From Ruminococcus sp. (GTDB lineage Bacteria; Bacillota; Clostridia; Oscillospirales; Ruminococcaceae): DNA of 44,209 nucleotides. How positions within the stretch are numbered: the first letter of the stretch is position 1; each line of letters starts with the position of its first letter. Shown here piece after piece: positions 2,763-30,789 of the stretch. Made by a program: the position numbers and the translations under genes. Below the pieces are notes generated by a model. That model had not been told where the DNA came from, ran no database searches, and was given only the letters and a program-made list of their open reading frames with translations. The stretch covers positions 1-44,209 of the forward strand of contig SVNM01000012.1 in NCBI GenBank assembly GCA_015066875.1, written 5' to 3'.

Positions 2763-5033
2763 TTAATCGTAGTATACATCTTCTCTTACGATATTTTCTT
2801 TACCTTTTATCTGTGATTCATATACCGACATAAGAAGCTCTTTATTCTCCTCAGTATCGGGAATATACAGGGTTTTATCAACGTAGCCTCCGCTTGAAAT
2901 TATACTGATGGCACCTGCGGGAAGCTCGTCTATCACAATGGGAGTAGCACAGTCAAGAAGTGCCATAAGCTCATCATTGAATTCAAGGTCCTTGAACTTA
3001 ACTCCGTCTGCGGTGTAATACTGATTATCGGTAACAGTTGAGACAGAGCCCTGAAGCGAGTATATTCTTTCAACACCATCGAAGTAATACTCATCATAAC
3101 CGAAGCGATTGTTTGCGTAGTATTTCATTTCTTCGTATATAGTATCGATATTGTTGAAGGCTTCAAACTCAGGGTATACAGCAAGACCGGTATAGAGGTC
3201 GCCATCGAGTCTGCCGGGATCCAGTTCAGTGCGGACAAAGCCAAGCTTGTCAAGCTCTGCCAATGTATTGCTGAAGCTTTCGAGGATAATGTAGTCGTTC
3301 ATATAACCGTAAACCACCGCATTTTTCCAGTCTTCCTCAGTCATAGCCATAAAGTCTGTTCTGTAGGCATTGATGAGTTCCTTCATCTCGTCATTTTTCA
3401 AAGTTTTGTAGTCGATAAACATATGTAATTTATCGGTAAGGTCTATATTGAAATACTGGCACTTCTTTGAAGCGTCCTTAGCAGTATCGTAGTATGTATG
3501 ATTGTTCTTGTTTGCGCTGAGAACAGTAAAATCATCTGCAATAGCGTTTGCGTACTCATCAGAGGTGAGTATTGCAAGAAGAAGGTCGTCAAGCATATCC
3601 GAGCTTATATTGTAATATCTCATTGATGTTGAGCCGTTGTTGAGCGAATAGGTGATTTGGATATATTCGTGACCGTCGTAAGAGAATACCTCATCATACT
3701 CTGTTACAAGCGAGCCGTTTTTTGTACCGATACTGCCCTTATAGCTTTCAGGCTCGTAGTAGCGGTTTACAACATCTTTATGAAGCTCTGTAACAGCCTT
3801 GATAACGTTTTCGTCCTCATAGATAATTTCATCGTGCCAGCCAAACAGGAAGTCTCCGTAGACAGAAACCGATTTTACAGCAGATGCACGGGGAACATAT
3901 TTTGCAGATCCGAAGCCGTCTGTTGATATGCAGACTTTGCAGAAGCCTACAACGACTACAACAGTTACAGCGTAGCGGAGAACTGAATATCCGAAACGCT
4001 TGAAGCCACGGTTTGAAGCAACCTCCATAATAAGATAGAGAATAGCACAGAGAATAACGCCTGCAAGGAAGCTTCCGCCGTAGATAATAAATGTACTGAG
4101 TATGCAGAAAACTGCAAGAGTAACTATAGCATAGTAGAAGAACTTGTAAACGTAAGGCTTTGAAACGCTTTCAGCCTTTCTCTTTTTGTAGAGGAAGTAT
4201 GTTGAAACGATAAGTGCGGTAATGACAATCGCTGTAGGAACAAACCAGCGGAAATAGCCTAAGTATACAAAATTATAGAATTCAAGAAGATACTCGGCAT
4301 AGGAGAAGAAGAAGAATACATTTCCCACAACGCTTGTTGAGTTGAAAAGCCATGAATAAGCGATGGCTTCGCTTGTAAGACCGAAGGCTCCGCACTCTGT
4401 AACAGCAGAGCTGATGCAGAAAACAGAAACGGGGATAATGATGTTTATAGCAAAGATGCTGAAAATAGCCTCAAAGGTGCTTCCACAGCAGTTGATTGCA
4501 AAAACCGCAGTAGAGTAGAATAAAATCATTCCGATGATGACTATTGTGGAAAGGATAAGCATTTCGCCGAAGATTTCCCAGAAGAACGCCATATCAAGGA
4601 ACAGGTCGCTTACTGCAAAAATTGTAATTGAGAGAATGATTGAAGCAATCATAGGAATTACATAGCAGGCAAGACCTGTAAGGAAATCGGCGAAAAATCT
4701 CTGCTTTGAGTTAAGGGGAAGGGAATAATGCATATCCACCAGAGTTTTGGTGTAAAGGTACTTGAAGTTGTCAAGAGCAAAGAGAATTCCCGAAAACAGA
4801 CTTATGCAGACTGCAATTACAGAGACGATCATAAGCTGTTCGATGTTGTCGAGATTTACATCGAGATTTTTCTGGTTAACCGTAGCGCTTATTACAGCAA
4901 GAACTGCCATAAAGGGAAGTCCGAGAAGGCTGAGCACGCAGTTTATGGTAATCAGCTTTTTGCTGTTCTGAATGTTATTGAGTATTCTTTTTGAAAAGAA
5001 GCTGTTTTTAGCCGTTGATGTCACTGCTGTCAT
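2763..5033 (-). CDS. ABC transporter permease (YtrC/D-like, large)
   Basis: This 756-residue protein is the membrane partner of the ATPase encoded just upstream. The N-terminal half (about residues 25-380) holds roughly eight to ten hydrophobic segments, starting with KLITINCVLSLLGLPFMAVL. The C-terminal half (about 400-756) is polar, rich in Tyr, Asp and Glu, and looks like a soluble or extracytoplasmic domain. The chosen start, ATG at 5033, sits seven bases after GGAGGTG; a longer in-frame reading to 5117 has no such site. It overlaps the ATPase gene by 26 bases, so the two are co-translated. Similar GntR-ATPase-permease operons (YtrA type) respond to cell-wall-active antibiotics in Bacillus. 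The substrate here is unknown. Confidence 0.8.
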   Translation of the reverse strand: MTAVTSTAKNSFFSKRILNNIQNSKKLITINCVLSLLGLPFMAVLAVISATVNQKNLDVNLDNIEQLMIVSVIAVCISLFSGILFALDNFKYLYTKTLVDMHYSLPLNSKQRFFADFLTGLACYVIPMIASIILSITIFAVSDLFLDMAFFWEIFGEMLILSTIVIIGMILFYSTAVFAINCCGSTFEAIFSIFAINIIIPVSVFCISSAVTECGAFGLTSEAIAYSWLFNSTSVVGNVFFFFSYAEYLLEFYNFVYLGYFRWFVPTAIVITALIVSTYFLYKKRKAESVSKPYVYKFFYYAIVTLAVFCILSTFIIYGGSFLAGVILCAILYLIMEVASNRGFKRFGYSVLRYAVTVVVVVGFCKVCISTDGFGSAKYVPRASAVKSVSVYGDFLFGWHDEIIYEDENVIKAVTELHKDVVNRYYEPESYKGSIGTKNGSLVTEYDEVFSYDGHEYIQITYSLNNGSTSMRYYNISSDMLDDLLLAILTSDEYANAIADDFTVLSANKNNHTYYDTAKDASKKCQYFNIDLTDKLHMFIDYKTLKNDEMKELINAYRTDFMAMTEEDWKNAVVYGYMNDYIILESFSNTLAELDKLGFVRTELDPGRLDGDLYTGLAVYPEFEAFNNIDTIYEEMKYYANNRFGYDEYYFDGVERIYSLQGSVSTVTDNQYYTADGVKFKDLEFNDELMALLDCATPIVIDELPAGAISIISSGGYVDKTLYIPDTEENKELLMSVYESQIKGKENIVREDVYYD

Positions 5034-5934
5034 AACCGAGCACCTCCAGTTCGTAGATAAATACTTCCTCAAGAGTAAGAGGAATAACCTCAAGCAGAAG
5101 AGGCTTTTTCGGGGCAAAGAATGCGTTTAAAGTATCCTCATCGCCCTTTGCGATAATGTAGTAAATACTCTGATTGCGTTCAAAGTGGAGTATATCCAGT
5201 CCCTCCTTGGCAAACTGCTCGTGAGTGTAATCAGCAGGCGAGCCATCGGGATTTTTGGGGAATACCACCTGAACCTTGTGGATATTACTTTTAATGCTGT
5301 CGATTTCTCTTGAGAAGATGATTTTACCCTCGTGAAGAAGAGCAGCACTGTCGCATACCTCGTTGATTTCCTTGAGGTTGTGGGAAGAGATAATTGTGGT
5401 AAGCTGTCTGTCGAGCATAGCGTCAACAAGCATTTTCTTGACGATAATTCTCATTGTGGGGTCAAGACCGTCAAATGCCTCGTCAAGAAGAAGGTAATCT
5501 GTACGGCAGGCAAGACCGATAATAACGATAGCCTGACGCTTCATACCCTTTGAAAAGTCGCTTATCTTCTTGTCAAGGGGAAGGTTTACCTTCTTTCTGA
5601 GTGATTCAAAAAGCTCCTCTGAAAAATTGGGATAATAGCCCTTGTAGTAATCCTTGAGTCCTTTAAGTGTAAAAGAAGCAAACTGAACAGTCTCATCGTT
5701 GATGAAAAAGACCTTCTGTTTTGTTTCAACATTATCGTAAGCGGATTTTCCGTCAACAAGCACCTGTCCGCCGTCAGGACTGTATATACCCGATAAAAGT
5801 CTTAATATAGTGGATTTTCCCGCTCCGTTAGAGCCAAGCAGACCAAAGGCAGTACCCTTTTCTATTTTCAGATCCACGCCGTCAAGAGCAGTAAACGTAT
5901 CGAATTTCTTAACTGTATTCTTTAATTCAATCAT
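5008..5934 (-). CDS. ABC transporter ATP-binding protein (YtrB/BcrA-like)
   Basis: The 308-residue ATPase has Walker A GLLGSNGAGKST at residues 31-42, a signature motif in the variant form SKGMKRQ rather than LSGGQ, Walker B YLLLDEAFDGLDP, and the switch histidine in SSHNLKE. The SKGM signature and the roughly 80-residue C-terminal extension are typical of the exporter subfamily that includes BcrA and YtrB. It would form a dimer energising the permease encoded directly downstream. The start at 5934 follows AAGGAG. The gene lies 21 bases after the GntR regulator gene, in the same operon. Confidence 0.92.
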   Translation of the reverse strand: MIELKNTVKKFDTFTALDGVDLKIEKGTAFGLLGSNGAGKSTILRLLSGIYSPDGGQVLVDGKSAYDNVETKQKVFFINDETVQFASFTLKGLKDYYKGYYPNFSEELFESLRKKVNLPLDKKISDFSKGMKRQAIVIIGLACRTDYLLLDEAFDGLDPTMRIIVKKMLVDAMLDRQLTTIISSHNLKEINEVCDSAALLHEGKIIFSREIDSIKSNIHKVQVVFPKNPDGSPADYTHEQFAKEGLDILHFERNQSIYYIIAKGDEDTLNAFFAPKKPLLLEVIPLTLEEVFIYELEVLGYDSSDING

Positions 5935-5955
5935 AGCAAATAATCTCCTTTCTCA

Positions 5956-6327
5956 TTAAGCTTTGCTGTTACGCTTTTTCTCTATATCATCGATATGATT
6001 TTTCAGCTCAGCAGACGTTACCCCTCGTCCCAGAGCTTCTGTAACAGTTTTGTCGAACTGTTCAAGAACAGCCGACTGATAAACCCTGCTGTCGGGTTTT
6101 GAGATAAAGCTTCCTCTGCCCTGAACCGAGTAGATAATGCCATTGCGTTCAAGCTCCTGATACGCCTTAGCGACGGTATTGGGATTGACGCCGGTATCCT
6201 TTGCAAGACTGCGGACGCTGGGAAGCTGGTCATTTTCGCAGAGAGTTCCCTGAACGATAAGCTCGATAATCTTTTTATAAATCTGCTCATAGATAGGAAT
6301 TCTGCTTGTCAGGTCAATAGAAAACAT
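5956..6327 (-). CDS. GntR-family repressor, YtrA subfamily
   Basis: The 123-residue length and layout fit the small YtrA branch of GntR regulators. Residues about 10-75 form a winged helix-turn-helix with LPSVRSLAKDTGVNPNTVAKAY and the wing YSVQGRGSFIS; a short helical dimerisation tail of about 45 residues follows in place of a large effector domain. It is the first gene of the operon with an ABC ATPase and permease, the standard context for these regulators. The start follows AAGGAG with five bases between. It very likely represses its own operon through the AGTGTA-type inverted repeat at 6348-6372. The inducing signal cannot be read from sequence; cell-envelope stress is the precedent. Confidence 0.93.
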   Translation of the reverse strand: MFSIDLTSRIPIYEQIYKKIIELIVQGTLCENDQLPSVRSLAKDTGVNPNTVAKAYQELERNGIIYSVQGRGSFISKPDSRVYQSAVLEQFDKTVTEALGRGVTSAELKNHIDDIEKKRNSKA

Positions 6328-6347
6328 AGTAGCTCCTTTCTGTCATA

Positions 6348-6372
6348 GGTGTACTATATCGGATAATACACT
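6348..6372 (-). promoter_or_regulatory. Probable YtrA-type operator
   Basis: On the minus strand the site reads AGTGTA, then 13 bases, then TACACC. From memory, the operator described for B. subtilis YtrA is AGTGTA-N13-TACACT, one mismatch away. An extra half-site TACACTT lies at 6376-6382 on the plus strand. The site sits just downstream of the -10 box and immediately before the gntR start, where bound repressor would block transcription. Confidence 0.75.
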
Positions 6373-6384
6373 TGGTACACTTGT

Positions 6385-6413
6385 ATAGTAACATATCTTT
6401 CCCCACTTGTCAA
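6385..6413 (-). promoter_or_regulatory. Promoter of the gntR-ABC operon
   Basis: On the minus strand a perfect TTGACA (6413-6408) is separated by 17 bases from TACTAT (6390-6385). Transcription should start near 6378, so the inverted repeat operator falls at the start of the transcript. Confidence 0.8.
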
Positions 6414-6477
6414 GAGCTTTTCTGAATTTTTTTCAAAAATCTGCAAAAGTGCAACGGCTGATTTCTATACATACAAA

Positions 6478-6510
6478 AATATCGGACGAACAAAAATTGT
6501 CCGTCCGATT
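6478..6510 (-). terminator. Terminator of the thrS operon
   Basis: ATCGGACG (6481-6488) pairs with CGTCCGAT (6502-6509), extended by an inner ACAA/TTGT pairing. On the minus strand the hairpin is followed by ATTTTTG. It lies just after the zinc-ribbon protein gene. Confidence 0.7.
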
Positions 6511-6519
6511 AAATCAATA

Positions 6520-7089
6520 TCAATTCTGAGTGTTATCCTCTGTAAGCTTTGAAGAGCAGTATTTGCAGTTTTCCACAAATCCCAGCCTGATGTTGTTAGG
6601 GGCTCCGCACGATGGACATTTAACCACATCAAATCTGTCTTCAACCTTTTCAGCTCCGTTATTTAGAACGATCACGGGCTCATCGGGATTTTCCAGTGAA
6701 CAGTTGATAAGAAATCCCTTTTTCACAAGCTTGCCGAACAGGTCGATGAACTTATCAACGGGCTTGCCGAAAAGTTTTGCGGTTTTCTCAACAGAAACCA
6801 CTCCGTCGGGGTCGGCTTCAAAAAGGCTGTTGAACTTATACGCTTTACCCGAAAGAATGAGAGTTCTCACAGCCCACAGGAGAAAGCATCCCGGAACAAT
6901 TATAAAGCCGATATACACAGCAAGGTGACTGCCGATTTCGTCCTCCTGAACAACAGAGTAGTTGCCGTTCATTGCCGAGATGCAAAGACCTATTCCCGAA
7001 ATTCCGAGAAGTATTATAAAGGCTGTTGCAAGAATGATAATCCACGAAAAAAGCTGAGAGAACAGAAGTTTTCTTTTTGAAAGATACAT
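6520..7089 (-). CDS. Membrane protein with C-terminal zinc ribbon, unknown function
   Basis: I do not recognise a named family for this 189-residue protein. Two hydrophobic segments are visible (about residues 14-38 and 55-77), which would leave the C-terminal 110 residues in the cytoplasm. That part contains a possible small winged-helix-like stretch (GVVSVEKTAKLFGKP, VKKGFLIN) and ends with CPSCGAPN and CKYCSS, a four-cysteine zinc ribbon. Its ATG overlaps the last base of thrS, so it is co-translated with thrS and probably follows T-box control. A role related to threonyl-tRNA synthetase is not implied by anything in the protein itself. Confidence 0.75.
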   Translation of the reverse strand: MYLSKRKLLFSQLFSWIIILATAFIILLGISGIGLCISAMNGNYSVVQEDEIGSHLAVYIGFIIVPGCFLLWAVRTLILSGKAYKFNSLFEADPDGVVSVEKTAKLFGKPVDKFIDLFGKLVKKGFLINCSLENPDEPVIVLNNGAEKVEDRFDVVKCPSCGAPNNIRLGFVENCKYCSSKLTEDNTQN

Positions 7090-9035
7090 TATCTTACCTT
7101 CTTTGCGATATCGTCAATGAGCTTGACAAGAAGATCAGCCTGAGACATAGAGCCTAAATCGCCCTCACGTCTTGAACGTACAGAAACAGTCTGCTCTTCA
7201 ACCTCCTTATCGCCGATAGTGAGCATAATAGGAAGCTTATCCATAGTAGCGCTTCTGATCTTATAGCCTACCTTTTCAGCTCTGTCGTCGATAGAAGCAC
7301 GGATACCGGCAGTTTCAAGCTTGGCAAGAACCTCATCGCAGTACTCAAGATGACGGTCTGCAACGGGAATGATACGTACCTGTTCGGGAGCAAGCCACAG
7401 GGGGAATGCACCTGCATACTTTTCGATAAGCAGAGCAAGAGTTCTCTCGTAACAGCCAAGTGAAGTTCTGTGAATGATATAAGGACGTCTCTTTGAGCCG
7501 TCAACATCAACGTACTCCATACCGAACTTTTCAGCAAGAAGCATATCGATCTGGATTGTAATGAGAGTATCTTCCTTGCCGAAAACGTTTTTGATCTGGA
7601 TATCGAGCTTAGGACCGTAGAATGCAGCCTCGTCAATGCCGACAGAGTAATCGAGCTCTAAGTGGTCGAGGATCTTCTTCATAAGTCCCTGAGCCTCTTC
7701 CCACTGCTCCTTTGTACCCTCATACTTGTTCTTGGGATTTTCGGGATCCCACTGTGAGAAGCGGTATGAAACGTCCTCAGCAAGACCGACAGTTTCAAGC
7801 ATATATTTAGCAAGCTCTAAGCAGTTCTTGAATTCTTCCTCAAGCTGTTCGGGACGAAGAACGATATGTCCCTCAGAAATTGTGAACTGACGCACACGGA
7901 TAAGTCCGTGCATCTCACCGCTGTCTTCGTTACGGAAGAGAGTTGATGTCTCGCCCAGACGCATAGGAAGATCACGGTATGAACGCTGTCTGTTGAGGAA
8001 TACCTGATACTGGAAGGGGCAAGTCATAGGACGGAGAGCAAAACACTCCTTAGTCTCGTCATAGGGATCGCCGAGAATGAACATACCGTCAAGGTAGTGA
8101 TCCCAGTGGCCTGAGATCTTGTAAAGGTCTCTCTTAGCCATAAGAGGAGTCTTTGTAAGGAGGTAGCCTCTCTTCTGCTCCTCGTCCTCAACCCAGCGCT
8201 GAAGAGTCTGAACAATTCTTGCGCCCTTGGGGAGAAGAACGGGAAGTCCCTGACCGATGCAGTCAACAGTAGTAAAGAGCTCAAGCTCACGGCCAAGCTT
8301 ATTGTGATCACGCATTTTAGCCTCTTCACGCTGTTTAAGGTCAGCTTCAAGGTCAGCGGACTTAGGATAAGCGGTAGCGTAAACTCTTGAGAGCATCTTG
8401 TTCTTTTCAGAGCCTCTCCAGTAAGCTCCTGTACAGGAAATAAGCTTGAAAGCCTTTACGGGAGCAGTTGTCATAAGGTGAGGACCTGCACAAAGGTCGA
8501 TAAACTCGCCCTGCTTGTAGAATGAGATAGGCTCGCCCTTATCAGCGTGCTCCTCGCAGAGCTCAACCTTATAAGGCTCGTCCATTTCCTTGAGCTTAGC
8601 GATAGCCTCTTCGGGCGAAAGCTCAAACTGCTCAAGAGCAAGACCTTCCTTAACGATTTTCTTCATTTCAGCCTCGATTTTTTCAAGCTCTTCGGGAGTA
8701 AAGGGCTTTTCAAGGTCAAAGTCATAGTAGAAGCCGTTGTCGATAGCGGGACCGATAGCAAGCTTAGCCTGCGGATAGAGTCTCTTTACAGCCTGAGCGA
8801 GAATGTGTGAAGCTGTATGCCAGAATGTCTTTTTACCGTCGATTGAGTCGAAGGTACATACCTCAAACTCGCAGTCGCCGTCGATAACTGTACGGAGGTC
8901 CTTTACCTCTCCGTTGATTTTCACACAGCATGAAGCCTTGTAAAGTCCCATACCGATGCCCTTGATGATTTCGCAGGCGGGCATTGCGCTTTCGATTTCA
9001 CGGATACTTCCGTCTTTAAGTGTAAGTTTGATCAT
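7089..9035 (-). CDS. thrS: Threonyl-tRNA synthetase
   Basis: The 648-residue enzyme attaches threonine to tRNA-Thr. It has the full bacterial layout: an N-terminal TGS domain (about 1-60), an editing domain beginning with HTASHILAQAVKRLYP (about 75-230) that carries the HxxxH metal motif, the class II catalytic core (RPMTCPFQYQVF, the motif 2 region FRNEDSGEMHGLIRVRQF, and HRTSLGCYERTLALLIE as motif 3), and a C-terminal anticodon-binding domain. The start at 9035 follows AAGGAG. It is read from a T-box-controlled transcript, but a transposase-type gene lies between the leader and thrS. The tRNA-Thr gene itself lies at 20669-20744 in this window. Confidence 0.98.
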   Translation of the reverse strand: MIKLTLKDGSIREIESAMPACEIIKGIGMGLYKASCCVKINGEVKDLRTVIDGDCEFEVCTFDSIDGKKTFWHTASHILAQAVKRLYPQAKLAIGPAIDNGFYYDFDLEKPFTPEELEKIEAEMKKIVKEGLALEQFELSPEEAIAKLKEMDEPYKVELCEEHADKGEPISFYKQGEFIDLCAGPHLMTTAPVKAFKLISCTGAYWRGSEKNKMLSRVYATAYPKSADLEADLKQREEAKMRDHNKLGRELELFTTVDCIGQGLPVLLPKGARIVQTLQRWVEDEEQKRGYLLTKTPLMAKRDLYKISGHWDHYLDGMFILGDPYDETKECFALRPMTCPFQYQVFLNRQRSYRDLPMRLGETSTLFRNEDSGEMHGLIRVRQFTISEGHIVLRPEQLEEEFKNCLELAKYMLETVGLAEDVSYRFSQWDPENPKNKYEGTKEQWEEAQGLMKKILDHLELDYSVGIDEAAFYGPKLDIQIKNVFGKEDTLITIQIDMLLAEKFGMEYVDVDGSKRRPYIIHRTSLGCYERTLALLIEKYAGAFPLWLAPEQVRIIPVADRHLEYCDEVLAKLETAGIRASIDDRAEKVGYKIRSATMDKLPIMLTIGDKEVEEQTVSVRSRREGDLGSMSQADLLVKLIDDIAKKVR

Positions 9036-9056
9036 AGTAATTCTCCTTTATATAAT

Positions 9057-9614
9057 TTAATTTGGTTTGTCTTTAATTTGCATTGAGTCAGTGCAGAATA
9101 ACCTGTCATTCTCCCAATCTGCCGGATTGTTTTCGATGTACTGCCAATAAGAGACGTATTCGTTTTTATTGCGGATAATGTGGTCGTTAAAAGAACGTTG
9201 CCACGGGGAAAATCCGATTTGTTTTGTAACCGAGCCCTTGAATTGTTTGATTACACGAGAAACTGTAGGGGCGAACTGTGTTCGCCCGATGCTTTTATCA
9301 ATATCCACAATCATATGGATATGATTCGGCATAATAACAAATTTTGAAATACGGATTGTATTCTTGTAAATCGAATTGATTTTGTTCAGCTCGTTTTTTA
9401 CAATTTTTCCGATTTCCGATAATTGTATGCGTTTTTGCGGGCGAACGCAGTTCGCCCCTACAACAGGTGAATTCGGTTCAATCGATTGATATTTATTATG
9501 CTGTTGCCAGAACAGACATACCCTGTTTTTCGTACAAACGGTTACAAAATACGCACCATTGCGACTGTAATCATAATTTTCAAGGCGAAGTTTTTTTCGT
9601 ACTGCGTGTTCCAT
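9057..9614 (-). CDS. REP-associated tyrosine transposase (RAYT, Y1/IS200-like)
   Basis: This 185-residue protein belongs to the single-domain HUH nucleases that process REP palindromes. It shows YSRNGAYFVTVCTKNR near the start, the HUH-type metal motif in FVIMPNHIHMIV (His98, His100), SPWQRSFNDHIIRN, and YIENNP near the C-terminus. I cannot assign the catalytic Tyr with certainty. Residues 52-60 (VGANCVRPQ) and 110-118 (GRTQFAPTV) are encoded by REP palindromes lying inside the gene. The chosen ATG at 9614 follows GAGG; the longer reading would start within the T-box terminator. It is placed between the T-box terminator and thrS, 21 bases before the thrS start. RAYTs usually do not carry terminal repeats and are rarely mobile on their own. 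Confidence 0.9.
   Translation of the reverse strand: MEHAVRKKLRLENYDYSRNGAYFVTVCTKNRVCLFWQQHNKYQSIEPNSPVVGANCVRPQKRIQLSEIGKIVKNELNKINSIYKNTIRISKFVIMPNHIHMIVDIDKSIGRTQFAPTVSRVIKQFKGSVTKQIGFSPWQRSFNDHIIRNKNEYVSYWQYIENNPADWENDRLFCTDSMQIKDKPN
9265..9288 (+). repeat. REP palindrome, copy 1 (inside RAYT gene)
   Basis: GGGCGAAC (9269-9276), loop TGT, GTTCGCCC (9280-9287): a perfect 8-base stem, preceded by GTAG. It is in the opposite orientation to copy 2, together forming an inverted pair of about 197 bases. Confidence 0.85.
9439..9461 (-). repeat. REP palindrome, copy 2 (inside RAYT gene)
   Basis: GGGCGAAC (9439-9446), loop GCA, GTTCGCCC (9450-9457), followed by CTAC. On the minus strand it reads GTAGG-GGCGAAC like copy 1, so the two copies face each other. 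Confidence 0.85.
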
Positions 9615-9623
9615 AAAAACCTC

Positions 9624-9872
9624 ATAAAAAACAAAACGCCCCTCAAACCGCAAAACGGCTCAAGGGACGACAAAAATCGTGGTTCCACCCTGATTCACAC
9701 GAAGAACGCTTCGTATCTCATTGGCTCTGTAACGGGAGCAACCGGCGCTTATTGGGCGCACTCAGAGGCGGTGTGCTGTATATTCCTGTTTCTGCAGTCT
9801 CGCACCAAGCGACTGCTCTCTGAAAAAAAACAACGGAAAAGCCTTCCTCGTCATAGATTTTTAACTATACTA
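9624..9872 (-). ncRNA. T-box riboswitch, threonine-specific
   Basis: On the minus strand the leader has the canonical T-box element AGGGTGGAACCACG (plus 9678-9691), which pairs with the uncharged tRNA acceptor end. A stem I region with CAGAGAG and GGTGCGAG and a stem III-like CCGG...CCCGTTACAG segment lie upstream. A likely specifier codon is ACC (Thr) at plus 9770-9772, but I assign it only tentatively. The competing terminator is an 11-base stem (9640-9650 with 9656-9666) followed by a U-rich run (9636-9625). Uncharged tRNA-Thr would stabilise the antiterminator and allow readthrough into the RAYT gene, thrS and the zinc-ribbon gene. Confidence 0.92.
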
Positions 9873-9878
9873 TTGTTC

Positions 9879-9907
9879 ATATTATCATACTTTTTAACAG
9901 TTGTCAA
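9879..9907 (-). promoter_or_regulatory. Promoter of the T-box/thrS transcript
   Basis: On the minus strand a perfect TTGACA (9907-9902), a 17-base spacer and TAATAT (9884-9879). Transcription would begin near 9872, just before the T-box structures. Confidence 0.85.
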
Positions 9908-9957
9908 GCACTTTTTTAGAATTTGTTTCAGAAAATCACGGGAAATACTCAGGAAAT

Positions 9958-9986
9958 TTGCAATGGCAGAAAAAATATGTTATAAT
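9958..9986 (+). promoter_or_regulatory. Promoter of the GH95-GH26-GT2 operon
   Basis: TTGCAA (9958-9963), 17 bases, then a perfect TATAAT (9981-9986). It diverges from the thrS promoter about 50 bases away. The stretch 9615-10033 has no protein gene and holds only the T-box and these two promoters. Confidence 0.75.
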
Positions 9987-10033
9987 GTAAGATAAGAAAT
10001 TTTCGGATTTTTGGTATGAAGGAGTGTTTGATT

Positions 10034-12349
10034 ATGAATACTGAGACACTGTTAAAATACAACAAGCCTGCCGAGTGCTTTGATGAGGCTCTTCCTGTAG
10101 GCAACGGAAGAATAGGCGGAATGATTTACGGTATTTCCGCAAATGAGAAAATCCATCTGAATGAAGACTCGATATGGTCGGGGGGACTCAGACACCGCGT
10201 TAATCCCGATTCTGCCGAGGGACTGGGCGAGGTGCGTGCACTCCTGAAAGAAGGAAGAATTCCCGAAGCTGAGAAAATCGCATTTGAAAAGCTTCAGGGC
10301 GTAACCCCGAATATGCGTCACTATATGCCTCTGGGCGATTTGTCGATAAATATGGAGCTTGACGGCAAGGTTAAGAATTACAGCCGAAGCCTTCAGCTTG
10401 CAAATGCTGTTTCAGACGTATGCTTTACAGTGAACGATGTTGAATATACAAGAGAAATTTTCGTATCTGCTCCTGACGAGGCTATGGTTATCCACCTGAC
10501 AGCTTCAGAGGAAAACAAGCTTTCCTTCACCTGTAATATAGACGGCAGAGACGATTACTATGACGATAACCGTCCTTGCGGAGAAAATATGATACTCTAC
10601 ACAGGCGGTACAGGCTCACAGGACGGAATTTTCTTTGCCGCTGTTGTGGGAGCTTCCTGTGAGGGCGGTACACTCCGCACCTTAGGCGGAAAAATTCAGG
10701 TAAAAGATGCAACCGAGGCTACAATCGTAGTAACTGTACGCACAAGCTTCTACGGAGAGTACTACAAGGAATCAGCCGAGGTTGATGCTGAAATGGCTCT
10801 TTCCTGTGGCTATGACGAGCTTTTTTACCGTCACGTCAACGATTATAAGGAGCTTTTTGACCGTGTTGAGCTTTGCCTTAACGATAACAGCGATGCGATT
10901 GAGGAGCTTGATACCGCAGAGCGTCTTGCACGCCTTAAGGGCAATGAGCTTGACGATAAAGAGTGCGTGAGAAACATCCACGATAACAAGCTGATCGAGC
11001 TTTACTTCAATTTCGGACGCTATCTTATGATTTCCGCAAGCCGTCCCGGCACTCAGCCGATGAATCTTCAGGGAATATGGAATAAGGATATGTGGCCTGC
11101 CTGGGGAAGTCGCTTCACCATAAACATCAATACAGAGATGAACTACTGGCCCGCAGAAAGCTGTAATCTTTCAGAATGTCACCTTCCTCTGTTTGAGCTT
11201 CTTGAGCGCGTCTGCGAAAACGGCAGAATTACCGCAAAGGAAATGTACGGGGTGGATAAGGGCTTTGTCTGCCACCACAATACTGATATATGGGGAGATA
11301 CTGCTCCTCAGGACCTGTGGATGCCAGCTACAATATGGCCTATGGGCGGAGCTTGGCTTGCTCTTCACATCTTTGAGCATTACGAGTATACTCTCGACAG
11401 GGAATTCCTTGAGAGTAAATATCATATCCTCAGGGAATCTGCGGAGTTCTTTACGGAATATCTTATCGAGGACAGCGAGGGACATCTTGTAACCTGTCCG
11501 TCGGTATCACCGGAAAACACCTACCTTACCGATAAGGGAGTAAAGGGCTGTCTTTGTATGGGACCCTCAATGGACTCGCAGATTATTACAGTGCTTTTCA
11601 ACGATGTTATAAAGGCTTCGGAAATACTGGGCAGAGATGAAAAGATTGCCTGTCAGCTGAGAGAAATGCTTAAAAAGCTTCCTCAGCCCGAAATCGGCAA
11701 GTATGGACAGATCAAGGAGTGGGCTGTGGATTACGATGAGGTTGAAATCGGCCACAGACATATCTCACAGCTTTTTGCACTTCACCCGGCTGACCTTATA
11801 ACTCCCCACAAGACTCCGAAACTTGCCGACGCTTCAAGAGCTACTCTGGTAAGACGTCTCATTCACGGTGGCGGACACACGGGCTGGAGCTGTGCGTGGA
11901 TTGCAAATATGTGGGCAAGACTTTACGACGGCGGAATGGTCTACGAGAATATCAAAAAGCTTCTTACCCATTCCACAAGCCCCAACCTTTTCGATATGCA
12001 CCCGCCTTTCCAGATCGACGGAAACTTCGGCGGAATTTCAGCCGTTACAGAGGCTCTGCTTCAGAGTGTAAGCGGTGAGATCAATCTTCTTCCCGCACTT
12101 CCCGATGAGTGGTCTGAGGGACACGTTTACGGTCTGAGAGCCAAAGGCGGATTCGGAGTGGATTTAGAGTGGCGCGCCAATAAGCTGGTAAAGGCTGAAA
12201 TCACATCTGATTTCGGTGGAGTTTGCCGTGTAAGAGCAAACTGTGTGGCAAGCGTTGTGTGCGACGGAGCTACAGTAGGCTCGCAGATAGATAACGGTGT
12301 GATAATTTTCAATACAACACCGGGAAGCACCTATACAGTAAAGGCATAA
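10034..12349 (+). CDS. GH95 glycosidase (alpha-L-fucosidase / alpha-L-galactosidase family)
   Basis: The 771-residue protein is a full-length GH95 enzyme. Its N-terminus shows the family's beta-sandwich start ([27 protein letters not shown]), followed by an (alpha/alpha)6 barrel. By alignment from memory with the Bifidobacterium enzyme AfcA, the catalytic set is present: general acid Glu494 in SVSPENTY, Asn364 and Asn366 in NINTEMNYW, and Asp662 in IDGNFGG. There is no signal peptide, so the enzyme should act in the cytoplasm on imported oligosaccharides. I chose ATG 10034 because GAAGGAG (10018-10024) sits nine bases before it; the upstream in-frame ATG is part of that site. Fucose and galactose release cannot be told apart by eye. 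Confidence 0.92.
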
Positions 12350-24425: not shown

Positions 24426-24836
24426 TTATTTAAAGTGCTTCTGCGATATTTTAAGACGGTTCATCGCCTTGTTAAGAGCTGTCTGAGTGTGATAGTACTC
24501 CTTGATGCTCTGCTGTTGGCGGAGCTTTTCTTCTGCGCGTCTTTTGGCTTCCTGAGCACGCTTGATGTCGATTTCTTCGGGAAGCTCGCAGGTATCAACG
24601 AGTATTACGGCAAATTCGGGCATAACCTCCATAAATCCTTCAGAGGTTGCAGCGTAATGCCACTTGCCGTCAACAAGATATTTAAGCTCGCCTGTGGGAA
24701 GGGAAGTTACAAGAGCCTCATGACCGCCGAGAATACCCAGCTGTCCGTCAAGTGCGGTAACAACAAGGTGCTGGCAGTCGCCGTCATAAAAGACGCGGTC
24801 GCTGGCGATTATCTGAAGGTGAAAGGTTTTAGCCAT
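24426..24836 (-). CDS. atpC: ATP synthase F1 subunit epsilon
   Basis: The 136-residue protein has the epsilon layout: an N-terminal beta-barrel (MAKTFHLQIIASDRVFYDGD, VTALDGQLGILGGHEALVTSL) and a C-terminal helical hairpin (IDIKRAQEAKRRAEEKLRQ onward). Epsilon sits on the central stalk with gamma and can inhibit ATP hydrolysis. It is the last gene of the operon, in the usual order after atpD. Confidence 0.95.
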   Translation of the reverse strand: MAKTFHLQIIASDRVFYDGDCQHLVVTALDGQLGILGGHEALVTSLPTGELKYLVDGKWHYAATSEGFMEVMPEFAVILVDTCELPEEIDIKRAQEAKRRAEEKLRQQQSIKEYYHTQTALNKAMNRLKISQKHFK

Positions 24837-24854: not shown

Positions 24855-26267
<1,413 letters not shown>

Positions 26268-26296: not shown

Positions 26297-27211
26297 CTAT
26301 TGTGCAGATTCTGTCTTAAGAGCATTGGCACCGCCTGCAACCTCGCTTATTTCCTGGGTTATAGCAGCCTGTCTTGCTCTGTTATACATAAGCGACAGTT
26401 CTTTAATCATATCTCTTGCGCTTGTTGAAGCTGAGTCCATAGCGGTCATTCTTGCCTGCTGTTCACAGCAGAAGGCTTCGACCATAGCGCCGTAGATAAG
26501 TCCCTTTGCGTAGTTTGGAATGAGGTAGTTCATAACCTCCTCAGGAGAAGGAAGGAACGAAGCCTTGGGAAGCTTTTTCAGAGTACCGTCCTTATCCTTT
26601 CCGAAATGTCTGCGTTCGAAGGGAAGCAGACGCACAACCTTGGGCACAAATTCGTTCTTCACCATATCGGTAAACACGAGATAAACCTCATCGAGCTCGC
26701 CGTTTCCGAATTTTTCAAGAACGAGCTCAGCGATCTCCCTTGCCCTGTAGAGTGTGGGATTCTGAGTTGTATAAAGGAACTGTCCGTCGAAAACCGAGTG
26801 ATCGGCATAGTTATTTCTGCGCTTGAAGTACATACGCCCCACCTGTCCGAGAACGAAAAGGTAACAGCTGTTTTCATAGGACTTGGCAAGCTCCTGTTCG
26901 GCAAGCTTCAGGATATTGTGGTTATAGCTTCCGCACAGTCCCTTATCGGCGGTAATGATAACATAGCCTTTTTTACGTTTTTCTGCGGGAATATCCTCAC
27001 GTCTGTTAAAATATTTCTGCTGAACGTGGGGAGTATGCTCTAAAATATCCTCAAGAGTTTCCTGAAGCTTGTGGAAATAGGGCATAGTGTCATCGTGCGC
27101 CTTTCTTGCCTTTTTAAGCTTTGAGGAAGATATAAGATACATAGCGTTTGTAATCTTCAGTATCTGTTTTATACTTTCAATACGCTCGCGTATTTCACGC
27201 ATATTAGGCAC
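26297..27211 (-). CDS. atpG: ATP synthase F1 subunit gamma
   Basis: The 304-residue rotor-shaft subunit shows the conserved N-terminal helix (MREIRERIESIKQILKITNAM), the central ITADKGLCGSYN, and the C-terminal helix with MTAMDSASTSARDMIKELSLMYNRARQAAITQEI. It appears to start with GTG, with AAGGTGG about nine bases before; an ATG three codons later is the alternative. It sits between the delta-alpha fusion gene and atpD. Confidence 0.97.
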   Translation of the reverse strand: MPNMREIRERIESIKQILKITNAMYLISSSKLKKARKAHDDTMPYFHKLQETLEDILEHTPHVQQKYFNRREDIPAEKRKKGYVIITADKGLCGSYNHNILKLAEQELAKSYENSCYLFVLGQVGRMYFKRRNNYADHSVFDGQFLYTTQNPTLYRAREIAELVLEKFGNGELDEVYLVFTDMVKNEFVPKVVRLLPFERRHFGKDKDGTLKKLPKASFLPSPEEVMNYLIPNYAKGLIYGAMVEAFCCEQQARMTAMDSASTSARDMIKELSLMYNRARQAAITQEISEVAGGANALKTESAQ

Positions 27212-27225
27212 AGCCCTTCACCACC

Positions 27226-29268
27226 TTAACCAAGATATTCCTTAACAGCCTTTTCAAGCTTGAGTGAAAGCTCATCGCTGAGCTGTTTTTTATCTTCAAT
27301 TTCCCTGATAATATCGGGATAGTAAGTTTTTATATATTCAACGATACCCTGTCTGAAGTCTCTGACCTTGTCAAGAGGCATATCCTTGAGATATCCTCCT
27401 GTTGAAGCAAAGAGCACTATAACCTGTTCATAGTGGCTGTAGGGCTTGCAGAGGGGCTGTTTGAGTATTTCCGTAAGCATATGACCGTGATTGAGCATTT
27501 CCGAAGTAGCGGGGTCAAGCTCGGAAGAAAACTGGGTAAATACCTCCATTTCCTTGAACTGAGCAAGGTCGATACGAAGAGTACCCGCAAGCTTTTTCAC
27601 AGCCTTTGTCTGAGCAGAGCCACCTACACGTGAAACGGAAAGTCCTACATTAACGGCAGGTCTTACGCCTGCGAAGAAAAGCTCGCTTTCCAGGTAAATC
27701 TGTCCGTCTGTGATAGAGATAACGTTTGTGGGGATATATGCCGAAACGTCGCCCGCAAGAGTTTCAATGATAGGCAGAGCTGTCAGTGAACCCCCGCCGT
27801 GCTCATCATCAAGACGGCATGAACGCTCAAGAAGTCTTGAATGGAGGTAGAAAACGTCACCGGGATAAGCCTCACGTCCGGGCGGTCTGTGAAGCAGAAG
27901 TGACATTGCACGGTAAGCAACGGCGTGCTTTGAAAGGTCATCATAGATAATGAGAACGTCCTTGCCCTTTGAAACGAAATATTCCGCCATTGCAGTGCCC
28001 GAATAGGGAGCTATATACTGGAATGGAGCAGGCTCGCTTGCAGAAGCCGACACAACGATAGAGTATGACATAGCGTTGTGGGCCTTAAGAGTATTCACGA
28101 CCTTAGCGACAGTTGAGGACTTCTGTCCGATAGCGACGTAAACGCAGATAACGTCCTTATCCTTCTGATTGATGATAGTATCAATAGCGATAGAGGTTTT
28201 ACCTGTCTGTCTGTCGCCGATAATCAGCTCACGCTGACCTCTTCCGATAGGAAACATAGAGTCGATAGCAAGAATACCGGTCTGAAGGGGCACTGTAACG
28301 GGCTTTCTGTCGATAACTCCGGGCGCTTCACGCTCGATAGGGAAGTAATCAACAGCTTCGATATAGCCAAGACCGTCAATAGGCGAGCCCAGAGCGTCAA
28401 CAACTCTGCCCAGCAGAGCCTCGCCGACGCCAACACCCGCACGTTTTTTTGTACGTGAAACAGCCGAGCCCTCAGTAAGACCGTAATCGTCGCCGAGAAG
28501 CACGACTCCGCAGGAATTTCTTTCGATATTCTGAACGATACCTCTTACGCCTGTTTCAAACTCAAGAAGCTCGCCGTACATAACGTGGCTGAGCCCTTCA
28601 ACGATAGCGATACCGTCGCCGATACGCTGGATATAGCCTGTTTCGGCGGATTTAGAGTCTATGCGGAAGTCATCGACCTCGCTTCTGAGAACAGAAATAA
28701 TATCGGAAGAGTTTACCTTTGTTGTTTCCGAGTCTTTCTGCAAAGCATTTCCGTCAGCTGAAGAAGCCTTGCTTACCAGCTTTTCACGCATAAGCTTAAG
28801 ACCTGTTCTGAAGCTTTTATCATAGACGAAATCGCCCACCTGAAGCACAAAACCGCCGACGATTTCGGGGTCCTTACGGTATTCGATGTTTACTCGGCTT
28901 GTGTTGAAGCGGTCGCGGATAAAGTTTTCCATATCGCTCTGCTGTTTAGTTGTAAGGGGAGTAACGTATCTTACCGTAGCCTTTACACAGCCCTGTTTCG
29001 AGATACAGTGTGTATAATAGGCGTCGAAAATCTCCTTGATATGCGCCTCATCGCCGTTTTTATATACGTTTATTGCGAAGGTGAGCATTTCCTGTGGAAG
29101 TCTTCCCTTAAGAGCAGACTTCTTTTCATTTTCGGAAAGAGACTTATCCTTAAGCAGAGCTTTTATATCATCGCTTTGCTCAAGAATACCTCTTGTTTTA
29201 TCAATAATTCTCAGGGGCACATTCTTGCTTACGAGATACTGAATATAACCGTTATAATTCCCGTTCAT
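27226..29268 (-). CDS. atpHA: ATP synthase delta-alpha fusion protein
   Basis: One uninterrupted frame of 680 residues joins two normally separate F1 subunits. Residues 1 to about 165 match delta (OSCP): a slightly short helical N-terminus, then [24 protein letters not shown]-type [17 protein letters not shown] and a final helix LKLMREKL. Residues 166-186 are a polar linker. Residues 187-680 are full-length alpha: [31 protein letters not shown]-loop GDRQTGKT (351-358), and the intact nucleotide-binding core. There is no separate atpH in the operon; this gene occupies the places of both atpH and atpA, four bases after atpF. There is no stop for delta and no ATG, GTG or TTG with a good ribosome site at the alpha start. 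Met160 could in principle restart, but its upstream AGG is weak. Confidence 0.92.
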
Positions 29269-29271
29269 AGC

Positions 29272-29790
29272 TTAATGCACCTCATTTAAAAGGTCGTCTC
29301 CCGATAATTTTTTATTTTCCTCTTCAAGGAAATTATCAACGAGACGTCTGTTATTTTCATCGCCGAGGTTCTCGCCCACAATTTTTGAAGCTGCTGCGAT
29401 AGCAAGGTCAGCAATCTGTGACTGAGCCTCCTGAAGAGCCTTCTGACGCTCTACAGCGATATTCTTATTAGCCGAATCAATAAGCTGTTTTGCTTCCTCC
29501 TGAGAGCTTTTAAGAAGCTCGCTTTTTACAGAAGCAGCCTCCTGCTTTGCCTGTTCGATGATATTCTGAGCCTCCTTGCGTGCCTGAGCGAGAGTTTCTC
29601 TGTTTGCTTCAGCAAGCTCTCTTGCCTCAAGCTTTGCCTTTTCGGCAGAGTCGATATCATTCTGAATTGACGCAGTTCTTTCGTCCATCATTTTTCTCAA
29701 GGGCTTGAAGAGAAAGATTTTCAAAAGAATAAAAAGCAGAATTATATTAATTATCGGCCAGATAAAATTCCAAACACCAATATCAAGCAT
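29272..29790 (-). CDS. atpF: ATP synthase F0 subunit b
   Basis: The 172-residue peripheral stalk subunit has one N-terminal membrane segment (NFIWPIINIILLFILLKIFLF, about residues 8-28) followed by a long charged coiled-coil helix (RKMMDERTASIQNDIDSAEKAK onward). It dimerises and normally contacts delta at the top of F1, here the delta part of the fusion protein encoded next. There is only one b gene, as in non-photosynthetic bacteria. Confidence 0.95.
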   Translation of the reverse strand: MLDIGVWNFIWPIINIILLFILLKIFLFKPLRKMMDERTASIQNDIDSAEKAKLEARELAEANRETLAQARKEAQNIIEQAKQEAASVKSELLKSSQEEAKQLIDSANKNIAVERQKALQEAQSQIADLAIAAASKIVGENLGDENNRRLVDNFLEEENKKLSGDDLLNEVH

Positions 29791-29816: not shown

Positions 29817-30038
29817 TTATCCAAGGAAAAGGATAATGAGAAGAGCAATAACAAATCCGTAGATAGCGGTAGCCTCTGCAAGCGCACAGCCAAGAAGCAG
29901 AGCCTTGTTGATATCACCCTTAGCCTCAGGCTGACGAGCGATTGATTCTGTTGCCTTTGAAGTTGCGATACCGATACCGAGTCCTGCGCCAAGGCCTGTA
30001 AGTACAGCTACAGCTGCTCCCAATGCGATAGTTCCCAT
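29817..30038 (-). CDS. atpE: ATP synthase F0 subunit c
   Basis: The 73-residue hairpin protein forms the rotor ring. Helix 1 is Gly/Ala-rich (GLGAGLGIGIATSKATESIA), the polar loop is RQPEAKGD, and helix 2 carries the essential carboxylate Glu55 in LAEATAIYG. The residue at the place of Gln32 of the Na+-dependent Ilyobacter ring is Ile22, and the residue after the Glu is Ala rather than Ser, which argues for proton rather than sodium coupling. Confidence 0.97.
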   Translation of the reverse strand: MGTIALGAAVAVLTGLGAGLGIGIATSKATESIARQPEAKGDINKALLLGCALAEATAIYGFVIALLIILFLG

Positions 30039-30083: not shown

Positions 30084-30767
30084 TTATTCAATAGCTTCCG
30101 ACATAAACAGAGATGTCAGGAAAACGAAAACATAAGCCTGAATGATACCGTCGAAGATATCGAAATACAGACCGAAAACAAGGGGCACACCAACGGGTAT
30201 GCAGAGCTTTATAAGCTCCATAACGACGAAAGCGCCGAGCACATTTCCGAAAAGTCGCATACAAAGCGACAGGGGCTTGATAACAAGCTCAAGGATATTG
30301 ATAGGAAGCATAACAGCCATCGGCTCCTTAAAGCTTTTCAGCCAGCCCTTAGTACCACGCTCTCTGATGCTTGCATACTGGATAAGCACGATAGACACAA
30401 TAGCCAGCGAAGCAGTAACGCCAAGGTCCTTTGTAGGCGGTCTTAACCCGAAAATTCCCACAATATTTGCAATGCCAAGATAAATCAGCAGAGTTTCGAG
30501 AATGGGAAGATACTTTTTGCCTTTATGTCCCAGAGTTTCGAGGAAAAAGTTATCAAGCCAGCTTATACCCGATTCAATGAGGCACTGGATACCCTTTGGC
30601 ACACGTTTGAGATTACGTGTAAAGATGATTGAAAAAATCACAAGCACCGCCATAATTCCCCATGTTACCACACATGATTCGGGCACGGGAATTCCGCCGA
30701 ATATGGGGATAGTAAAGGCTGTTCTGCATTCAAGCTCATGCATAAGCTCTTCAGCAAGATTGTTCAT
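30084..30767 (-). CDS. atpB: ATP synthase F0 subunit a
   Basis: The 227-residue membrane subunit forms the ion half-channels against the c ring. It has five or six membrane segments and the essential Arg in LSLCMRLFGNVLGAFVV, plus the terminal helix FDGIIQAYVFVFLTSLFMSEAIE. I chose ATG 30767 because GAGGGTG lies nine bases upstream; a GTG four codons earlier would overlap that site. It is the first gene of the operon; atpI and atpZ are not seen. The ribosome site begins only seven bases after a terminator-like hairpin. Confidence 0.95.
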   Translation of the reverse strand: MNNLAEELMHELECRTAFTIPIFGGIPVPESCVVTWGIMAVLVIFSIIFTRNLKRVPKGIQCLIESGISWLDNFFLETLGHKGKKYLPILETLLIYLGIANIVGIFGLRPPTKDLGVTASLAIVSIVLIQYASIRERGTKGWLKSFKEPMAVMLPINILELVIKPLSLCMRLFGNVLGAFVVMELIKLCIPVGVPLVFGLYFDIFDGIIQAYVFVFLTSLFMSEAIE

Positions 30768-30789
30768 AGCATAAAACACCCTCTTTCAC

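Follow-up and report, generated by a model that had tools for sequence, protein, structure and literature searches.

A fused delta-alpha gene in the ATP synthase operon of Ruminococcus and other Bacillota, a candidate for a natural multi-stalk enzyme

In Ruminococcus, the delta and alpha subunits of an F-type ATP synthase are joined in a single gene, and this fusion is natural and old, being found in nearly all sister species. The operon that carries it may encode a natural multi-stalk enzyme with a high H+/ATP ratio and three deltas per F1, a reading to which a probability only slightly above one half (about 0.52) is assigned. The gene lies in a window (the whole stretch of DNA analysed, 44,209 nucleotides) of Ruminococcus sp. 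(GenBank assembly GCA_015066875.1, contig SVNM01000012.1).

The fused gene is a single open frame on the minus strand, with an ATG start, no internal stops, and, by inspection, a ribosome-like site (GAGGTG) ahead of its own start. The Pfam OSCP/delta profile (PF00213) matches residues 24–164 with 82.7 bits (cut-off 22.3) and is covered from position 28 to 172 of 172, both delta domains being present and the first part of the N-terminal domain (NTD) falling outside the match. The Pfam parts of alpha follow (beta-barrel, 207–273; nucleotide domain, 331–546; C-domain, 553–677), and the NCBIfam atpA model TIGR00962 matches residues 185–678 with 767.7 bits against 484.45 (model positions 2–497 of 503). 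The N-ATPase alpha model (TIGR03324) was discarded with 615.1 bits, under its curated cut-off of 750.5, and the operon order is also unlike that given for N-ATPases in the available text of PMC5709465. The original prediction had described delta and alpha in one frame, the limits of delta, linker, and alpha, and the order atpB-atpE-atpF-[delta-alpha]-atpG-atpD-atpC; the 680-aa frame, the profile boundaries, and Pfam matches of the neighbours confirm all three. The operon (a-c-b-[delta-alpha]-gamma-beta-epsilon) is entirely on the minus strand and includes no separate delta gene. The features are the following.

24426..24836, minus strand: atpC, subunit epsilon, both domains (Pfam PF02823 and PF00401)
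24855..26255, minus strand: atpD, subunit beta (Pfam PF00006)
26297..27211, minus strand: atpG, subunit gamma (Pfam PF00231)
27226..29268, minus strand: fused delta-alpha gene, 680 aa (single open frame, Pfam and NCBIfam matches)
27226..28710, minus strand: full alpha subunit, residues 187–680 (TIGR00962)
28711..28770, minus strand: linker, about residues 167–186 (about 20 residues), with no conserved start codon with a ribosome-like site
28771..28983, minus strand: delta C-terminal (b-docking) domain, about residues 96–166 (OSCP match to residue 164, the profile end; high conservation)
28984..29268, minus strand: delta N-terminal domain, about residues 1–95 (OSCP match from profile position 28; alignment)
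29272..29790, minus strand: atpF, subunit b (Pfam PF00430)
29817..30038, minus strand: atpE, subunit c (Pfam PF00137), without the Na+ ligand set (I at Q/E32, A at S/T66)
30084..30779, minus strand: atpB, subunit a (Pfam PF00119)
Contig C55 of the same assembly (genome G000), region 33000–48000, locus L005: unfused F-type operon at 3848–10068

In comparison with most canonical deltas, the NTD is shortened in the alignment between helices 1 and 2, as named by inspection. The linker is polar and, among the aligned fused rows, differs in sequence and length from species to species with the reading frame preserved; the N-terminal helix region of alpha is kept in the fused classes aligned.

The search for the same fused frame in related genomes, recommended in the original prediction, was run on 125 genomes of the genus: 113 contain a complete one (670–699 aa, no stop), three a partial or broken copy (G321, G314, G329), and four separate genes only (G355, G383, G396, G404), while in five (G311, G323, G348, G373, G401) no match exceeded the level of the beta subunit. 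An artefact of sequencing or assembly might be suspected because the source assembly is a draft of 107 contigs that is 88% complete, but it has a negligible probability given the same open frame in these 113 genomes and in many other groups, and the full-length form in a 2.9-Mb single-contig genome (G1112, locus L226); a single sequencing error, already held to be unlikely, is refuted by the same data. The only operon seen in the four genomes with separate genes (G396, G355, G383, and G404; loci L238–L241) is unfused and carries the Na+ motif; it may have replaced the fused one. In G298 the fused gene occurs twice (contigs C31 and C41), with equal score and identity to the query, as the result of duplication or of assembly overlap.

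An unfused alpha accompanies the fused one in 11 of the 113 genomes, source genome included (nine intact, one with a stop in G380, and one in pieces in G351), and the other carriers have no alpha listed besides the fused one. The second unfused atpA proposed earlier is therefore real in the source genome, on C55, and is not a general answer to the stoichiometry, being found in just these 11 genomes. As regards delta, a single OSCP match was detected in 23 of the 24 genus genomes searched besides the source genome (4/4 in one set, 19/20 in another); 19 of the matches in the 20-genome set lie in frames of 676–692 aa, frames being listed for this set and not for the set of four. The exception, G325, has an extra free-standing delta.

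The C55 operon is complete (a-c-b-delta-alpha-gamma-beta-epsilon) and, since it has separate delta and alpha genes, a mixed assembly is conceivable in the source genome; its epsilon has 87 aa and is without the C-terminal helical domain. Its c subunit has the Na+ ligand set (Q/E32, E65, S/T66, as given in the available text of PMC2359735), which is absent from the c of the fused operon; by motif, the source genome would thus combine a fused enzyme of H+ type with an unfused one of Na+ type. In the same motif reading, with three rows without a recognised alpha set aside, 4 of the 54 c subunits from fused operons have the complete ligand set, versus 18 of 22 in an author-chosen group of unfused Clostridia-like c subunits and 6 of 22 among unfused ones outside this group.

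Beyond the genus, fusions were searched for with a profile of the delta C-terminal domain (CTD), the linker, and the alpha N-terminus, built from 18 rows, a frame of at least 560 aa with no stop being counted as fused. Among the matches listed, fused frames are present in at least 22 of 398 genomes of the phylum and at least 61 of 345 of the order, two samples that overlap; 7 of the 243 loci are without a recognised alpha. The residues ahead of alpha fall into three classes with few intermediates, namely about 68–108 (CTD only), 166–188 (full delta), and 236–258 (a triple fusion), and most fusions outside the genus keep only the CTD, the NTD being absent. In 53 fused operons, the earliest start of the fused frame lies between -119 and +70 nt from the stop of b, which leaves no space for another gene, and neither a hidden NTD gene nor a remnant was found in these gaps. 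OSCP matches in 73 genomes with fused genes amount to one in 58, a second free-standing delta in nine, none over threshold in five, and two in one frame in the remaining genome (G901), whose locus L228 on contig C17 has a tandem pair of delta CTDs before alpha in a 681-aa frame. An odd OSCP match in G417 ran into subunit b, and L007 and L009, considered as a frameshifted fusion, are instead separate genes with ribosome-like sites. The best identity in a plasmid search, available as match counts only, was 66%, to an unfused alpha.

The triple fusion, b'-deltaCTD-alpha, forms a group of 13 loci (L204–L215 and L042), all with the C-terminal part of OSCP by Pfam and all with a free b gene upstream. 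Pfam ATP-synt_B is matched in 10 of them, in eight at or over the cut-off, and in none of L210, L214, and L215; a hydrophobic, membrane-like N-terminal helix is present in all 13, with values of 1.95–2.84, where none of 105 other fused rows, counting duplicates, exceeds 1.51. Epsilon was found in nine of these loci, each time as a short frame (85–115 aa) apparently without the C-terminal domain; epsilon frames of up to 111 aa occur also in 7 of 53 unfused operons.

The history of the fusion was examined on alpha alone. A 145-row tree was built from the 174 usable rows after removal of 29 that are unfused; the 30 family loci (L086–L115), the majority of the genus rows, and a number of duplicates had already been excluded, and the main tree comprises 86 rows under a careful model (L011 and L176 are from the same contig, L117 and L242 are the same gene). 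In the 86-row tree the genus rows are one clade (100/100) within a larger one (47 rows, 100/95) that unites full-length with CTD-only fusions and in which unfused L007, L009, and L155 are nested, the first two with an H+-type c motif; the triple form is also one clade (95/97). The tree needs at least four changes between fused and unfused and, among all fused rows, at least six between NTD presence and absence. In topology tests, whose groups were chosen after viewing a tree, a single clade of all 63 fused rows against the 23 unfused was rejected (p 8.6e-50), and a single fused clade with the three nested unfused rows left free was not (p 0.37); many independent fusions are therefore unproven, as one origin with later splitting fits. 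A main fused clade free of any of the 23 unfused rows was rejected (p 0.003), so that the model requires either that some fused genes separated again or that fusion happened more than once, and the fusion, under the model used, appears reversible or not unique. Likewise, several NTD losses within the main clade are unproven, since one loss was not rejected (p 0.29), though the best tree wants several.

A precedent for such proteins exists, and the original prediction, which knew of no described delta-alpha fusion, has to be corrected on this point. According to the available text of Ueno et al. 2025 (PMC12229609), bacterial FoF1 contains a single copy each of delta, the b2 stalk, and subunit a, an FoF1 with more than one a had yet to be identified, and the axial delta NTD is held responsible for the one-stalk limit. 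In that work, the NTD was deleted and the CTD fused to alpha in Bacillus PS3 FoF1; stalks and a subunits in the engineered enzyme numbered as many as three and averaged about two, its H+/ATP ratio was 5.8 versus 3.0 (PDB 9jc1 and 9jc2), and a multi-stalk enzyme was predicted for a natural NTD-less fusion in Acidaminococcus fermentans (UniProt G4Q3K6 and A0A1I2C5T3). The Ruminococcus protein matches 9jc1 over residues 93–669 and resembles the engineered one in the junction of the delta C-terminus to the alpha N-terminus, in one CTD per alpha, and in the lack of a separate delta in the operon, but it keeps the NTD, which in the engineered form is removed (residues 2–104), and its linker is about 20 residues long instead of short, and its genome has a delta and an alpha on C55. 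It shares with the A. fermentans fusion, by description, a natural single gene in the atp operon, but is full length where the latter is reported NTD-less; some short forms among the matches are presumably of the A. fermentans kind. The b-delta fusion of mycobacteria and Gordonia (available text of PMC5709465) also joins stator subunits in an atp operon, but it excludes alpha and hence does not multiply delta to three, whereas the b'-deltaCTD-alpha genes join all three. In the open-access literature searched, a natural delta-alpha fusion was found only in PMC12229609, and neither an NTD-retaining one nor a b'-delta-alpha triple fusion was found.

The stoichiometric puzzle of three alpha and one delta per F1 had been rightly raised, the fused gene being the only alpha of its operon. 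The gene would yield one delta-alpha polypeptide and, since this is the operon's sole alpha, each F1 head built from the operon would carry three deltas, unless free alpha is also made by linker proteolysis or internal initiation, with the composition (delta-alpha)1(alpha)2. This alternative is improbable. It is favoured by the polar linker, variable in length and sequence, and by a Met near residue 160 that is common in the genus, but this Met lies within the last delta helix and is without a ribosome-like site in the rows examined, with the sole exception of a neighbouring ATG in L122. Start codons were surveyed around the alpha start in 40 full-length fused genes (31 rows of the genus and nine further ones, L225 omitted), and no conserved internal start was found: an ATG with a ribosome-like site occurs in four rows (L013, L122, L135, and L139) at scattered positions, and a GTG with such a site in one more (L226). 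In contrast, 29 of the 31 genus rows have a site at the fused gene's own start, and four unfused relatives have, by inspection, an alpha start codon with one. Initiation at Met160, as originally suggested, is unsupported, and alpha should come with delta attached, barring later cleavage.

Selection on the two delta domains was compared at equal alpha identity, the pairs being not independent and many from one genus; in the second of two comparisons, from which the NTD values come, as in the start-codon survey, the genus is represented by 31 rows (30 distinct genes), and L130 was omitted for its late first start codon. At 75–95% alpha identity, CTD identity is 0.63–0.85 in fused full-length proteins versus 0.39–0.72 in canonical ones in the first comparison and 0.63–0.84 versus 0.38–0.69 in the second, and in CTD-only and triple forms it is above canonical at 60–85% alpha identity, with no extra conservation in CTD-only forms at 55–60% (0.23 versus 0.23). 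NTD identity is 0.35–0.52 in fused versus 0.33–0.43 in canonical proteins at 75–90% alpha identity, slightly lower in the fused at 55–75% (0.14–0.29 versus 0.19–0.30), and 0.55 versus 0.63 at 90–95%, where the canonical pairs are seven. The CTD appears to be the guarded part after fusion, and the NTD probably still works, since its variability is about canonical and there is no clear decay.

Three peripheral stalks, absent from the options of the original prediction, are suggested by the engineered precedent and by the b'-delta-alpha relatives. Three CTDs per F1 would offer up to three docking sites for b2. The proton count per turn would then approach the product of the c and a subunit numbers, and ATP synthesis, or proton pumping, would be possible when the proton-motive force is low. 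The retained NTD would represent the ancestral condition, of which no more than one copy could occupy the head's central axis while the other two CTDs might still bind b2, and relatives would have deleted it once the fusion made it dispensable. This reading draws on the conserved fused frame, the failure to find a separate delta in most of the carriers examined for one, the lack of a conserved internal start, the extra conservation of the CTD after fusion, the NTD-less relatives, the b'-deltaCTD-alpha clade, and the capacity of engineered deltaCTD-alpha to form up to three stalks (available text of PMC12229609). It is weakened by the lack of extra CTD conservation in CTD-only forms at 55–60% alpha identity, by the separate delta and alpha on C55, by the unfused rows nested within the fused clade, and by the NTD itself, the domain blamed by Ueno et al., in the text available, for the one-stalk limit. 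The last point leads to an alternative estimated at roughly one chance in three, a single-stalk a1b2 enzyme in which a single delta is docked, through its NTD to the axis and through its CTD to b2, and the other two are idle, free or packed at the rim. The retention of an NTD apparently still constrained in the genus, its restriction of the enzyme to one stalk according to the same source, and the kept alpha N-terminal helix region agree with it, but it leaves unexplained the much higher CTD conservation after fusion, the NTD-less relatives, and the presence in b'-deltaCTD-alpha of a membrane helix ahead of every alpha.

With the multi-stalk reading preferred, the wider proposal, given even odds, is that the delta-alpha fusion of Bacillota has long produced motors in which stalks and a subunits can each number up to three, full-length in the genus, deprived of the NTD in many relatives, and hard-wired by b'-deltaCTD-alpha in one clade; such enzymes, mostly H+-type by motif, would benefit by being able to synthesise ATP or pump protons when the proton-motive force is very low. 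A natural three-delta enzyme would test the limits on stalk number and the raising of H+/ATP by added a subunits in place of a larger c-ring, and the full-length form separates two effects combined in the engineered construct, the multiplication of delta and the removal of the NTD. The b'-deltaCTD-alpha proteins are the natural case in which, if alpha is present in three copies, there would be three b' per head because each alpha carries one, and several stalks look nearly unavoidable; if the multi-stalk reading is true, this fusion lets every alpha bring its own membrane-anchored stalk half.
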